Below are positions 1 to 4,773 of a stretch of DNA of 5,194 nucleotides, piece after piece. Position numbers and translations under genes: made by a program. Source of the DNA: Candidatus Lindowiibacteriota bacterium (lineage in GTDB: Bacteria > Lindowbacteria > 2-12-FULL-62-27); the NCBI GenBank assembly GCA_023249255.1, contig JAHFCY010000231.1, positions 1 through 5,194 on the forward strand. The letters are read 5' to 3'. Below the pieces are notes generated by a model that ran no database searches, was not told the DNA's origin, and saw nothing but the letters and a program-made list of their open reading frames with translations. Numbering within the stretch: position 1 is the stretch's first letter; each line of letters begins with the position of its first letter.

Positions 1-203
1 GCCGGGACCTGGGCCTTCTTCCACGAATCGGAGTTAAATGCCGGCAGGCGCCAATCGGGATTGTCACCGGTCGACAAATTCCACTGGCCTTCGAGGGACA
101 TCTCAAACCGCGGCGGTTCGAGCATGACGCCGAGGCCGAAAATATTCAGAAGAAGGCCGACAAGCGCGCTGACGCCCCAGGTTTTAGGTTCCACGACAAA
201 CAC
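1..203 (-). CDS. Signal-anchored protein with N-terminal beta-galactosidase-type sugar-binding domain (partial, N-terminus only)
   Basis: The frame runs off the left edge, leaving 67 residues. From a GTG at 203 it reads VFVVEPKTWG, then a hydrophobic segment (SALVGLLLNIFGLGVML, about residues 11-27) that is a signal peptide or membrane anchor. It continues into MSLEGQWNLSTGDNPDW and a P-x-F-x-x-S-x-W-x-x-x-x-VP pattern. That pattern is the opening of the galactose-binding-like jelly-roll found at the N-terminus of GH2 beta-galactosidases, and it closely parallels the C-terminal domain of the glycosidase at 693-4253. The remaining domains are outside the window, so it could be a glycosidase or a membrane sensor with a sugar-binding ectodomain. 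The start is uncertain: the frame is open back to the TGA at 269-267, no ATG precedes the hydrophobic segment, GTG 203 and GTG 194 have no clear Shine-Dalgarno, and TTG 242 has only a weak GGGG upstream. The heptamer tract lies directly upstream, so the native start may have been displaced. Confidence 0.7.
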   Translation of the reverse strand, partial: MFVVEPKTWGVSALVGLLLNIFGLGVMLEPPRFEMSLEGQWNLSTGDNPDWRLPAFNSDSWKKAQVP

Positions 204-208
204 CCGAG

Positions 209-239
209 ATTTTGGATTTTGGATTTTGGATTTTGGATT
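209..239. repeat. Left heptamer tract, four ATTTTGG units plus ATT
   Basis: On the plus strand the tract reads ATTTTGG four times without error (209-236), then ATT (237-239). It is strongly AT-rich against GC-rich surroundings. It forms an inverted repeat with 661-691. On the minus strand it lies just upstream of the GTG of the downstream gene, and if translated in that frame it would encode a NPKSKIQNPKS-like stretch. Short heptameric tandem repeats are known as dispersed intergenic elements in some bacteria, for example the STRR sequences of filamentous cyanobacteria. Whether this sequence is dispersed in the host genome cannot be seen here. Confidence 0.9.
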
Positions 240-250
240 CAAAAATCCAA
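233..250. other. Small perfect hairpin at the inner edge of the left tract
   Basis: TTGGATT (233-239) and AATCCAA (244-250) are perfect complements around the 4-nt loop CAAA. The right-hand arm amounts to part of one heptamer in reverse orientation. The hairpin lies 17 nt past the stop codon of the four-helix-bundle gene. It is too short, too AT-rich and lacks a following U-run, so it does not qualify as an intrinsic terminator on either strand. It may be part of the end structure of the unit. The right end has no equivalent hairpin. Confidence 0.5.
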
Positions 251-266
251 CCCCGTGTAAGGCAGG

Positions 267-620
267 TCATAAACGATCACGCAGGGTCTTGATGGATGCA
301 ACGGTCATTGCGACGATGGCATCGTATTCGGAGATGAGATCCTCCAACACTGCCGTGGGGACCAACCCCGATTCGGCGAGGAGCTCCAGCCAATATACGG
401 TTTCGTCTGCTTCTTCTTCAACAATGGCCAATTTTGAGATCATATCAGGCCGTGATTTTCCTCTGCACGCGGAACGGTAGTTTGCCCCTACTGACATCGC
501 CGACCTCAAGATCTGCCGCCCAATCACATCCATTGCCTGTTTCTTGGGAAGTGTCTCGATCAATCGAATCACCGCCAACGCCGCCTTTCGTGTCCTGTTT
601 TTGAAATCCTGCTCATTCAC
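267..620 (-). CDS. Four helix bundle protein (23S rRNA intervening-sequence protein / S23 family)
   Basis: This complete 117-residue protein is the usual length for the family. Family signatures are clear: an F-x-x-RT start of helix 1, LPKKQAMDVIGRQILRSAMS, the SVGANYRSACRGKSRPDMISK core with the near-invariant ANY and KSR-type motifs, an EEADETVYWLELL helix, and a final amphipathic helix (about residues 93-115). Known members form a pentameric, basic-faced four-helix bundle; they occur in ORFs inside 23S rRNA intervening sequences and include Avd, the accessory protein of diversity-generating retroelements. The start is GTG at 620, chosen because GGGGGAG lies 6 nt upstream and the protein begins at the expected family position; no in-frame ATG precedes it. 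There is no signal peptide, so it is cytoplasmic, unlike every neighbouring product. It is unrelated to the surrounding glycosidase genes and is bracketed by inverted heptamer tracts, suggesting a passenger or insertion. Its molecular function is unknown; nucleic-acid binding is the common proposal. Confidence 0.93.
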   Translation of the reverse strand: MNEQDFKNRTRKAALAVIRLIETLPKKQAMDVIGRQILRSAMSVGANYRSACRGKSRPDMISKLAIVEEEADETVYWLELLAESGLVPTAVLEDLISEYDAIVAMTVASIKTLRDRL

Positions 621-626
621 GGCATT

Positions 627-633
627 CTCCCCC
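627..633 (-). promoter_or_regulatory. Ribosome binding site deciding the GTG start of the four-helix-bundle gene
   Basis: The minus strand reads GGGGGAG, then six bases (AATGCC), then the GTG at 620. The strong purine block at ideal spacing supports a non-ATG start. The ATG inside the spacer (625-623) is out of frame. Confidence 0.7.
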
Positions 634-660
634 GAACATCAGTTTCTCCAGCCCGGCGCC

Positions 661-691
661 AATCCAAAATCCAAAATCTAAAATCCAAAAT
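661..691. repeat. Right heptamer tract, inverted copy of the left tract
   Basis: On the minus strand, from 691 downward, it reads ATTTTGG, ATTTTAG, ATTTTGG, ATTTTGG, ATT. This has the same unit count and length as the left tract, with one G-to-A change in the second unit. It begins one base after the TGA (695-693) of the glycosidase gene. The remainder of this 72-nt gap (621-660) carries only the ribosome binding site of the next gene and a GGCGCC palindrome at 655-660. I see no convincing promoter in it. Confidence 0.9.
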
Positions 692-692
692 T

Positions 693-3600
693 TCATTGGA
701 CTTTCCACGGCTTATAATCAAGCGGCAGGTAGGGGCCGAACTCAACGGGCCGCATCCAGATGCCGCCGCCGCCGCTGGCGTCGAATACTCTGACAGCGAG
801 GACGTTTTCGCCGCCGACGTCGACGAGTTTTTGCGGGACGGCATATTTTCGCGATTTTTCCCATGCGCTTTCACCGCCGGCGGTCATTGATCCGGTGGCG
901 CCGATTTTTTCGCCGTTGAGAAAAACGACGTCGGCGTCGTCGATGGCGCCGATGTGGAGGAACAGGTCCTGGCCCTGCCATGAATCCCAGACTTGCCGGG
1001 GGACTTCGAAGCGGAGCCGATACCAGCCAAATCCATCGTACTCGGGAAGTTTCCGGTCGCCGTCTTTCATGATCTCTGTTTCCCACTTGTCGGGCACGTA
1101 CATGTCGCGCCATCTGGAGTCGTCGAAATCGGGTTTGCTCCACGCGGCGTTATCGCCCTTGTTCCATTTCCAGTTTCCGGAAAGATCGAGCGGCCAGACT
1201 TTGGTTGTGCGGCGAGGCTCGTCCTTGAATCCGATCCGGTCGAGACCTTTCTGGATATAGTCGATTTTCATGGCGACGTCCCAGACGAATCCGGAGCGAT
1301 AATTTTCGATGGACAGCATCATGGGTCCCGTGCCGATTCCGATCATCCGGGGACAGGACCAGTTCTTGTCGAGGTTGTATCCGTCCGTAAATCCATATTT
1401 GCCCCAGACTTTGTCGTGGAGGTTGTCGTACATCCATCGCAGAGCGCGGATGGACAATTGAGGTGTTAACATGACGGACCCGCCGGCGGCGTTGATGGTG
1501 ATGGTCCCGTCCTGTCCGGGATAGGATGGCGGGGCGGCGAAGGCGTGATACCCTCCGGGGAAATCACCGGCGGTGAACCCCCAGGAATTGGGCCCGTATC
1601 CCTTGTGGTCCGGCGCCTTGTCGAGGGCGTAGTATCGGTTGGCGAGGGTGGCCTCGATGGCGTTTTCCCAGAAGTTGATAGTGCCGTCGTTCCGATCCCG
1701 GAAGTCGATCCAGCATTCGGGGAATTGGAACGTGAAAAGCGGCCCCTGGTTCAGGCTGCTGAATCCTTCGTATGTTCCGTAGTTTTCCGGAACGTCAAAC
1801 CAGAGATCAGTCGGCATGTTCTGGGGATGGCCGAGTTCCAAAATCGCCAGCATCTGGCCTTCGCAGTGGCGGTCCCAGTACGCATTGATGAAACCGCCGT
1901 TATTGGCGCCGGCGCCCATCGCGGCGAACTTGTTGTTGTTGTGCATCCATTTCCAGTCGACCCGTTCGTAAATTTTGCGCGCCATGGATTCGATTTCGGT
2001 GCCTTTGAAATACTGACCGGCAAACAAGATGCCGTAGAACAGCAGGGTCGAATCGACGGAGGACAGTTCCGTGTTCCGGTCGTTGACGCCTTTACGGTTG
2101 GTGAAATGGTAAAAAAACCCGTGATTGTTTTGAATTTTGTCGAGGTAAGCCGCGAGCGTGACGCGGCAGCGTTCAAACGCCTGGTCACGGGTGATCCAGC
2201 CGCGTTCGGCGCCAATGCACATGGCGGTGAGACCGAATCCGACGGCCGCAATCGAATTCCAGTCAAGGTCGTCGGTGGCCGCCCAATTGCTGGCGCCATC
2301 CAGCGTAATTCCATTTTCGGGATTGGCGCAGTACCAGTAAAATAAAAACGCGCGGCGCTCGACAAGGTCGAGGAATTCGTCGTCCGACATTCCGTCCGAC
2401 GTCTTGGGATCGGCCTGTGCAGACGACAGGAGCATGTCATGAACGGCTTTGCGGTCTTTGTCTGTGTAATCGAATACGCGGACTTCGGTGAGCGGTACGG
2501 GAGATTGCCGGATCGGCGCTTTGAAATAGGGGCTCCAGGAGGGTCGCTCCGGCCGTCCATGGCCTCCCGCGACACTCCCCCCGTCCGTGGAGGTCGGGAT
2601 GCCGGAAGCGGATGCGGCCGAGGGCGCCGAATCTTTCGGAGCGGCGACAGGCACTGGAGCGGACTGCCAGTTGTCCCAGTCGTCGACCGGCGAGGAAGAC
2701 GCAGGGGAGGCAGGTGCGGCGGACGAAATAAATTTTATAACAGATTTTTTCCCCACGGGAACGCCTCCCAGTATCCAGACGTCGTCGATGAAGACTTCTC
2801 CGGACTGATGTTTGTCCGTAAACCGAAGCGCGTAGGACTGGAGATTGTTGCGATCAATTTTTGTCAGAACCGATGACGGAATTTTAACCTGCCGCCAATC
2901 TTTGCTTCCGCCCTCCGTGCCGGGCGCCGCGAGAGTCATTTGTTTTCCGGCGTTGTCGCGCAGGGTCAATTCGAGAGGCGCGCCAACCGCCCACGATCCG
3001 CGCATCCAGAATGATAATTCAGTCCAGTTTTCCGGAAGGCCGGCGCCGAGGCGTTGGGTGAGAGAAGTTTTGCCGTCGGGGACGACCACAAACGCCGCGC
3101 GATACGCTTTGCCTGTGCCGCCCCGGCCCTGACCGTCAGGCGTTACCGCCGCCGAGATGAGACTTCCTTCGGATGCGTCGACCACCGGCGCGGATCCGAC
3201 CGCCGCCTCCTGCGCCTCCTCGAACGAATCGACCAGGATTTGTAACTGATCATCTCCTCGATTGAGGTGAGAGGAGTCAGAGAGTGATGTGCGAATCTTG
3301 CCACCCTCACCCCGACCCTCTCCCGCCAAGGCGGGAGAGGGGGAGTGGCTGAACAGATCCGGCGGTTTGACGGAATCATTCATGGATTTTACAGGCGACG
3401 GGGCAAGGCGCGGGGTGTCTATTGGAATTTCCATGGGATGAATCGCGGGCCGCTGCACCGATGCTATTTTTTTCTGTGTATCCGTCGGAGTGGATCGAGG
3501 CGGCGGGGGCGGGGGAGGAATCACGACGGGACGAATTGGCGCAGTCGGCGCCGGCCTCGTTTCCGCGGATCGGGCAAGAGCGGGGAGCATCGGTTCCGAA

Positions 3601-4253
3601 AGCGATACGCGGGGAGGCGTGGAGGGACTTTCAATTTTGGATTCGACAATAGGAACAGGCGCGGGCAGTTTGACGGGTGCGGCTTGAACAGGAATCGGTT
3701 TTGCGACCGGCGGCGACGGGGGTTGCGGTGATGCAACCGTCTTCGGGGATGGTTCAGCAGGTTTGGCGATCGGTGCGGGAGATTTCACGACCGGAACGGC
3801 GGATGGCGACGAATTACTCCAAACCTGGATGTCGAGAATGGAGGCGGCCACCGGATTATTGGAGTTGACGAGCAGGCGCAATCGGTCCGTCTGCAATTGC
3901 GGAGACGGCGAAATGATCGTTGAGGCTTCTTCCTTGATTCCCCGGGCGACTTCAACCCAGTTTCCATCCCGAAACGTTTCGAGACGCCAGGTTGCCATGA
4001 TGGAAAATTCCCACCGAATGACGACGTGATGGACCTCATAGGCCTTGTCAAGATCGAGTTCGATCCACGCGCCGACTCCTGCGGCCGGCACCCATGCGGT
4101 GAACAGGGATTCATCAACGGCGAAATGCGGCATGGCGGACGGCGCGAACGAGGAAGAGGCAATGACACGCGCGCGGGGAGCAACATTTTCAGCGGCCATG
4201 GCGGGCGCAACGAGAGACATGAACAGCGCCAGACACAGCCACGACCCGCGCAT
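693..4253 (-). CDS. Secreted multidomain glycosidase, GH144/glycoamylase-like (putative endo-beta-1,2-glucanase)
   Basis: This 1186-residue exported enzyme starts at ATG 4253, not at the ATG at 4295: from 4253 the protein begins with a clean signal peptide (MRGSWLCLALFMSLVAPAMA, cut near residue 20), GGGGA lies 7 nt upstream, and the start falls 1 nt after the preceding stop. Domains in order: discoidin/F5-8C-like (about 22-147, ending in SILDIQVWS); a Pro/Ala/Ser linker (about 148-335) with a run of eight prolines; a CBM-like jelly-roll (about 337-497, opening LQILVDSFE and closing GEVFIDDVWILGG); a second linker (about 498-590); a glycoamylase-like catalytic domain (about 622-1012); and a beta-galactosidase-type sugar-binding domain (about 1019-1176, LDLSGNWKWNKGDN to NVLAVRVFD). 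Catalytic-domain signatures include RRAFLFYWY, ELSSVDSTLLFYGILFAG, GPLFTFQFPECWIDFRD, GPNSWGFTAGD, INAAGGSVMLTPQLSIRALR and SIENYRSGFVWD. Known GH144 enzymes hydrolyse beta-1,2-glucan, but the PF10091 family is broader, so the substrate is inferred. The catalytic domain is only about a third of the protein. Confidence 0.88.
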   Translation of the reverse strand: MRGSWLCLALFMSLVAPAMAAENVAPRARVIASSSFAPSAMPHFAVDESLFTAWVPAAGVGAWIELDLDKAYEVHHVVIRWEFSIMATWRLETFRDGNWVEVARGIKEEASTIISPSPQLQTDRLRLLVNSNNPVAASILDIQVWSNSSPSAVPVVKSPAPIAKPAEPSPKTVASPQPPSPPVAKPIPVQAAPVKLPAPVPIVESKIESPSTPPRVSLSEPMLPALARSAETRPAPTAPIRPVVIPPPPPPPRSTPTDTQKKIASVQRPAIHPMEIPIDTPRLAPSPVKSMNDSVKPPDLFSHSPSPALAGEGRGEGGKIRTSLSDSSHLNRGDDQLQILVDSFEEAQEAAVGSAPVVDASEGSLISAAVTPDGQGRGGTGKAYRAAFVVVPDGKTSLTQRLGAGLPENWTELSFWMRGSWAVGAPLELTLRDNAGKQMTLAAPGTEGGSKDWRQVKIPSSVLTKIDRNNLQSYALRFTDKHQSGEVFIDDVWILGGVPVGKKSVIKFISSAAPASPASSSPVDDWDNWQSAPVPVAAPKDSAPSAASASGIPTSTDGGSVAGGHGRPERPSWSPYFKAPIRQSPVPLTEVRVFDYTDKDRKAVHDMLLSSAQADPKTSDGMSDDEFLDLVERRAFLFYWYCANPENGITLDGASNWAATDDLDWNSIAAVGFGLTAMCIGAERGWITRDQAFERCRVTLAAYLDKIQNNHGFFYHFTNRKGVNDRNTELSSVDSTLLFYGILFAGQYFKGTEIESMARKIYERVDWKWMHNNNKFAAMGAGANNGGFINAYWDRHCEGQMLAILELGHPQNMPTDLWFDVPENYGTYEGFSSLNQGPLFTFQFPECWIDFRDRNDGTINFWENAIEATLANRYYALDKAPDHKGYGPNSWGFTAGDFPGGYHAFAAPPSYPGQDGTITINAAGGSVMLTPQLSIRALRWMYDNLHDKVWGKYGFTDGYNLDKNWSCPRMIGIGTGPMMLSIENYRSGFVWDVAMKIDYIQKGLDRIGFKDEPRRTTKVWPLDLSGNWKWNKGDNAAWSKPDFDDSRWRDMYVPDKWETEIMKDGDRKLPEYDGFGWYRLRFEVPRQVWDSWQGQDLFLHIGAIDDADVVFLNGEKIGATGSMTAGGESAWEKSRKYAVPQKLVDVGGENVLAVRVFDASGGGGIWMRPVEFGPYLPLDYKPWKVQ
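3302..3348. repeat. Palindromic interspersed-type repeat inside the glycosidase linker
   Basis: CCCTCTCCCGCC (3316-3327) and GGCGGGAGAGGG (3330-3341) are perfect 12-bp inverted arms around a 2-nt AA. They are flanked by CCCTCACCCCGA on one side and GGAGTGG on the other. This sequence style, a CTCACCCC...CTCTCCC palindrome, is familiar to me as a dispersed, normally intergenic repeat in many proteobacterial and other genomes. Here it is read in frame as HSPSPALAGEGRGEGG (about residues 303-318 of the glycosidase), inside the disordered linker just before the jelly-roll domain. The following stretch at about 3249-3275 (CTCCTC...GAGGAG, imperfect) may belong to the same insertion; I cannot fix the boundary. 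Confidence 0.75.
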
Positions 4254-4254
4254 G

Positions 4255-4773
4255 TCAAAATCCCCAGATTTCAAATTCGTACAGGGAGAACCCATACTCG
4301 GTTGCGCGGTGGGCGCCGAACATTCGGATATAGCGGGCGGTCACCGGAGAAAATTCGAGCCGATCCTCTTCTCCGTCGCCGTTTCTGACAGTCGCGATTT
4401 TTGACCAGTCCTCGTTGTTGAGCGATCCTTCGATCCGGTATTCATCCGCAAATGCGGTTTCCCAGACCAGGCGGACGCCAATGACGGTGCGGTCAGCGCC
4501 CAGATCGGCGACAATCCACTGCCCGTCCGCGTGGGCCGAAGACCAGCGGGTTTTGGCGTCGCCGTCAAAGGCCATCGCGGCCCGGACATCGTCCGATTCC
4601 TGGCTTGAGACGAACGAACCGGCCGGCGCCAATTTTTTGGGCATCGACAACTGCGGATGCTGGAGTTCCGAACGATACGCCGCGCATCCCGCGAACATGA
4701 GAAGCACGACGACGCAGAGAAGCCCGGTGCGGAGGGTCACCCGCCGCTTCGACATTTGCCCAACTTGAGTCAT
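4255..4773 (-). CDS. Small discoidin-domain (F5/8 type C) lipoprotein
   Basis: This is a 172-residue protein. The start is ATG 4773, chosen over the upstream ATGs at 4803 and 4794 because a perfect AGGAGG lies 7 nt before it. Residues 8-29 form a basic then hydrophobic signal (KRRVTLRTGLLCVVVLLMFAG) ending in a lipobox-like FAGC, so Cys30 is the likely lipidated residue. Ala follows the cysteine, which under the E. coli rule would not retain it in the inner membrane. After a short spacer, residues about 45-172 form one F5/8C/CBM32-like jelly-roll: AMAFDGDAKTRWSSA, GQWIVADLG, ARYIRMFG and the closing LYEFEIWGF are standard strand motifs. It probably holds a glycan at the cell surface. The gene ends 1 nt before the ATG of the glycosidase, which also carries a discoidin domain, so the two are likely translated together. 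The lipobox is imperfect (Phe at -3). Confidence 0.88.
   Translation of the reverse strand: MTQVGQMSKRRVTLRTGLLCVVVLLMFAGCAAYRSELQHPQLSMPKKLAPAGSFVSSQESDDVRAAMAFDGDAKTRWSSAHADGQWIVADLGADRTVIGVRLVWETAFADEYRIEGSLNNEDWSKIATVRNGDGEEDRLEFSPVTARYIRMFGAHRATEYGFSLYEFEIWGF
4261..4265 (-). promoter_or_regulatory. Ribosome binding site of the glycosidase, inside the lipoprotein gene end
   Basis: GGGGA on the minus strand sits 7 nt before the ATG at 4253, overlapping the codons for the last Trp-Gly of the lipoprotein. Together with the TGA-C-ATG arrangement it supports termination-reinitiation coupling and argues against the upstream start at 4295. Confidence 0.55.

Follow-up and report, generated by a model that had tools for sequence, protein, structure and literature searches.

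The S23 gene described here, together with the repeat arrays on either side of it, probably constitutes a small mobile insertion unit, in which one S23 gene lies between inverted arrays of a 7-bp word specific to its locus. Presence and absence at matching junctions, dispersal, inverted arms, a period of 7, and covariation between word and protein were all observed among the S23 loci compared.

The window—the whole stretch of 5,194 nucleotides analyzed, which is the complete contig C301 of draft genome G000—contains in minus-strand order a partial gene, genes for an F5/8 type C lipoprotein, a glycoamylase and the S23 protein, and the beginning of a GH2-like gene. The features of the unit and its two host genes are:

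3–194, minus strand: downstream host gene, GH2-like start; GTG start at 194, cut by the contig end
208–692, minus strand: inserted unit of ~485 bp, ends approximate; missing at the orthologous junction in G001:C40
209–239, minus strand: downstream arm, (AATCCAA)n in coding-strand orientation; four heptamers plus ATT
267–620, minus strand: gene for the S23 (four-helix-bundle) protein of 117 aa; GTG start
661–691, minus strand: upstream arm, (ATTTTGG)n in coding-strand orientation; 30/31 identical to 209–239, inverted
693–4295, minus strand: upstream host gene, glycoamylase, F5/8 type C

The S23 gene is a clear member of both PF05635 (E = 1.5e-17; 64.1 bits against a curated cut-off of 33.8) and TIGR02436 (E = 1.7e-24; 86.1 bits against a curated cut-off of 24) in profile searches, and profile comparison identifies 2rld and 2gsc as its relatives in the PDB. 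It is the sole family match within the inverted repeats, where no transposase gene was found, and other overlapping ORFs within the unit have no support. The two tracts are each 31 bp long, are the only tandem arrays that TRF detects in the window, and occupy the gap between the glycoamylase and GH2-like genes. The inverted flank score of the gene is 30, and none of 5000 dinucleotide shuffles reaches it (mean 12, maximum 22). The arms pair with each other in the RNA fold predicted for the unit (z −2.4). An earlier note, made from the sequence alone, had described a four-helix-bundle gene between equal inverted tracts and proposed a free-standing relative of the intervening sequences (IVSs) of 23S rRNA, lacking a transposase gene; this description is borne out. 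The unit has the anatomy of an IVS, with complementary ends around an S23 ORF, and is positioned between two protein genes, not inside an rRNA gene.

The empty orthologous site that the earlier note had suggested looking for is present in Candidatus Lindowbacteria RIFCSPLOWO2_12_FULL_62_27 (G001), which belongs to the same family but to a different genus. The orthologues there are 65.6% identical over 867 aa (tblastn) for the glycoamylase, rising to 76% over the C-terminal 600 aa, and 72% identical for the GH2-like gene, and at their junction (G001:C40, near 62820) the stop codon TAA is followed by ATC and then GTG, a 3-nt gap from which the whole unit is absent. The third genome, G002, was searched for the operon gene and prmC and matched neither, such that no third genome polarizes the window's empty site.

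Filled and empty sites are also seen among near-identical Nostoc plasmids. Plasmid pC052_D has a 417-bp insert with arm words AGGAGTC/AGAAGTC between a stop and a start codon that are separated by 3 nt in pC052_A and pC052_B, and at the next junction of this operon, one gene on, pNsp_c carries a different S23 gene with GGGAAAA-type arms at a TAATG overlap. In two plasmids an S23 unit separates cas2 from cas1—a third plasmid has a 2-nt gap there—and another unit is situated between drmD and a pglX gene; these units are within defence loci (L410 and L420, cas2/cas1; L405, drmD/pglX). One further unit sits inside a DNA methyltransferase gene, with the loss of ~300 bp. Comparison of the Nostoc sites and of the G055 units discussed below revealed no consistent target-site duplication, and imperfect 4–5 bp copies flank the insert at two Nostoc sites. 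Taken alone, the empty-site comparisons do not distinguish insertion from loss, which counts against reading the unit as mobile.

The framing of S23 genes by inverted repeats is widespread. S23 loci were drawn from two sources, a peptide-pattern scan and a Pfam search, and the result is therefore independent of any one way of sampling. Among 100 S23 loci spanning over 10 phyla, 83% gave inverted scores of at least 20, as against 4% of 27 PIN-toxin genes, these PIN-domain controls coming from 27 genomes of a relatives set that overlaps the S23 genome set. Among the 74 usable loci of 80 found in other genomes the proportion is 85%, compared with 15% of 592 positions taken at random from these loci, a rate higher than that of gene-bounded controls partly because random positions include high-G+C coding sequence; in the 27 loci of the separate Pfam search it is 74%, with 6% in the control. 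With gene-bounded controls and a score of at least 22, the values are 48% of 96 S23 ORFs and 2% of 196 other ORFs (odds ratio 44, p = 5e-22). In the three genomes that represent the phylum Lindowbacteria here, every one of the nine classical S23 genes scored has inverted flanking repeats (scores 23–53). Five longer S23-like proteins, extended by an additional C-terminal part, have no arms.

The flanks share a period rather than a sequence. Identity at lag 7 is 0.382 in S23 flanks, 0.255 in control flanks and 0.256 in PIN flanks, with further S23 peaks at lags 14 and 21, and arrays are present in 100 of 124 S23 loci (period 7 in 89, 8 in 10 and 9 in one). These array-bearing loci use 73 distinct words; at the Lindowbacteria S23 genes alone we find AGAAGAC, CAATGAAC, ATAGAAAAT, GGGATTA, GGGAGAAA, AAATCCT and others, and the ATTTTGG word of the window is thus not itself conserved. 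Period-7 arrays do occur elsewhere in these genomes, and slippage could by coincidence have lengthened microsatellite-like tracts on either side of the gene, but we regard this as extremely improbable: the arms are inverted with respect to each other and have variant words in common, the shuffles never attain the window's score, solo tracts keep a fixed length, and the low rates at other ORFs and PIN genes disfavour it further. A search for 23S rRNA at 20 other S23 loci found no rRNA. At two loci (L218 and L230) the S23 unit sits between two tRNA genes.

Similar units have dispersed recently in genome G055, which supports the mobility that the earlier note had guessed at. Four S23 units, 96–99% identical and located at unrelated sites, share the left end GTTAAGCGC and the right end GAATACAAGAC; a 201-bp unit with these ends but no S23 gene has 48 matches, often in tandem. 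At L314:2425-2827 (G055:C9) these tandem 201-bp units are near-palindromic and begin with GTTAAGC or GTTAGGC; they were considered as integron cassettes, whose attC sites pair RYYYAAC with GTTRRRY cores, on account of these starts and set aside, as no partner core could be recognized by eye at the other end. The proposal that the heptamer tracts form the ends of the unit holds in Lindowbacteria, in Nostoc and at most S23 loci, but the repeated unit in G055 reaches slightly past its arrays. Contig C4 of G001 has a truncated S23 copy, 98% identical over 259 bp starting at the array, and near it a short gene-less palindrome with related ends; in both genomes, a gene-bearing element is related to gene-less derivatives. 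Near-identical copies are known for a minority of S23 loci, which counts against the mobile-unit reading, and no mobility enzyme for S23 units was identified. Genome G010 contains many copies of back-to-back pairs of S23-like fragments, forming imperfect inverted repeats of ~500–700 bp (L319–L325).

These dispersed copies bear on whether the arms are a regulatory or processing hairpin that isolates the S23 gene in operons, the gene itself being ordinarily horizontally transferred. The arms adjoin the ORF and pair in the predicted fold, and at 30 of the 49 loci with long neighbours the S23 gene has the same direction as both, while at four it runs against both, an orientation count that is weak evidence since operon genes share direction in any case. 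We nonetheless judge a hairpin of this kind improbable, given that dispersed gene-less units carry the same ends, that near-identical copies occupy unrelated sites, and that one insert lies within the methyltransferase gene.

The earlier note had also tied the 31-bp tract to S23 units, which is not supported as it was stated. G000 contains the tract three more times, each single: one copy is on C135, one lies within prmC on C177, and one, on C104, is a variant with the word ATTTCGG. The prmC array (L106:4818-5714) is in frame and directly ahead of the conserved GTGSG motif; G001 prmC has the same array, which rules out a fresh insertion and, as the two genomes represent two genera, indicates that the array is old; this counts against the mobile-unit reading. 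In G001, where the array counts are based on pattern searches and on 1.55 Mb of sequence, a 21-bp pattern has 45 exact and 119 near matches; 13 of 15 arrays checked comprise exactly four heptamers plus ATT, and these ATTTTGG arrays do not frame the S23 genes of G001. Inverted ATTTTGG pairs in G001:C40 were rejected as an S23 unit, being separate arrays in a gene-rich cluster that enclose no S23 gene. The same four heptamers plus ATT form 20 of 33 ATTTTGG copies in viral stretches. No S23 gene was found within 18 viral stretches bearing the tracts; neither the window protein nor alignment A2 matched the viral contigs, and the 11 distant matches to alignment A3 were not used. Palindromic ATTTTGG array pairs spaced ~20–100 bp apart, without S23, are seen on viral contigs at L081, L084, L086 and L098. 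With the tract occurring mostly singly or in short S23-free palindromes in G000, G001 and the viral stretches, it is not by itself a marker of S23. A different word, AGAAGAC, forms arrays in alternating orientation between the genes of a small-gene cluster in G001 (L099:9100-14400, on C4), several of which resemble toxin-antitoxin or nucleotidyltransferase genes.

Given these S23-free ATTTTGG arrays, the arrays may be an independent class of repeats. On this alternative they would be dispersed intergenic repeats, spread by a transposase of the host or of IS200/REP-like type, and S23 would be cargo caught between inverted copies. The fixed length of solo arrays, the short palindromes without S23, the gene-less 201-bp units of G055 and the absence of clear target-site duplications all speak for it. 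Against it are the strong association of inverted flanks with S23 and not with PIN genes in an overlapping genome set, the absence of arms in the five long-subfamily cases, and the covariation of words with the S23 protein; we consider it rather unlikely.

This covariation was measured at 88 loci, where S23 protein similarity and word similarity are correlated with a Mantel r of 0.52 (0 of 2000 permutations). For pairs from different phyla only, r is 0.49, and permutation within phyla never attains the observed r. Within one S23 subfamily r falls to 0.31, so part of the covariation is the difference between two S23 subfamilies, and the covariation may come from joint inheritance, not recognition. 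The S23 protein of L050 (Lindowbacteria) is 62–65% identical to those of Nostoc plasmids (tblastn) and their words are related (AGAAGAC and AGAAGTC); such likeness of non-coding words is hardly expected at this level of protein identity without constraint, and suggests that S23 recognizes the words. Recent joint transfer could contribute to the likeness.

In the mobile-unit reading, the two arms would pair as a hairpin, in RNA or in single-stranded DNA, and the S23 protein, a known pentameric ring, would recognize the words repeated in its own arms and participate in copying or inserting the unit. We know of no catalytic site in S23, for which reason enzymes from elsewhere would have to supply movement. 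Operons would tolerate the unit because its landing sites are between stop and start codons and because RNase III would cut its stem out of the RNA, as happens with an IVS; rRNA IVSs would then be family members that landed in rRNA. More tentatively, and as a possibility that we favour less than mobility as such, S23 proteins may be sequence-specific mobility or maintenance proteins serving a widely distributed class of mobile elements in bacteria, with a ring that reads its own word, with words and proteins coevolving, insertion at stop/start junctions, and IVSs and many heptamer repeats as members or remnants of the family.

The IVS literature already holds the S23 ORF, inverted ends of 28 bp that are complementary, excision by RNase III, and an old idea of mobility (PMC4990558). 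The 23S rRNA IVSs of Coxiella and Leptospira resemble the present units in having an S23 ORF in an element of ~430–500 bp with complementary ends, sporadic presence and no transposase gene; unlike them, the S23 units are free-standing, reside in protein and tRNA operons, and have heptamer arrays as ends. From this shared anatomy, rRNA IVSs are probably one case of a family of mobile insertion units, and the earlier guess of an IVS-like mobile unit is supported in part, the pattern being broader than was stated there. MITE and REP-BIME elements are likewise short palindromic units with gene-less beside gene-bearing copies, but the arms of S23 units are tandem words that vary by locus, the protein they encode is not a known transposase, and no partner transposase was identified. 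Cyanobacterial heptanucleotide STRRs and the TAACTGA repeats of Beggiatoaceae are intergenic 7-bp arrays, often between close genes, and the available text of PMC4679880 gives no account of inverted framing of S23 genes. A literature search, with few subscription papers in reach, did not find S23 genes framed by inverted heptamer arrays described. Avd of diversity-generating retroelements is a homologous four-helix-bundle pentamer, but neither a reverse transcriptase nor a variable repeat adjoins the window gene.

To our knowledge, the S23 protein and rRNA IVSs have been without explanation since about 1990, and the intergenic heptamer repeats of bacteria likewise. The link between S23 and heptamers gives both puzzles one frame—a mobile unit with repeat words matched to its protein—and opens direct tests, in the binding of each S23 protein to its own word and in the swapping of words. 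The general S23-heptamer design across bacteria points to an overlooked class of mobile elements.
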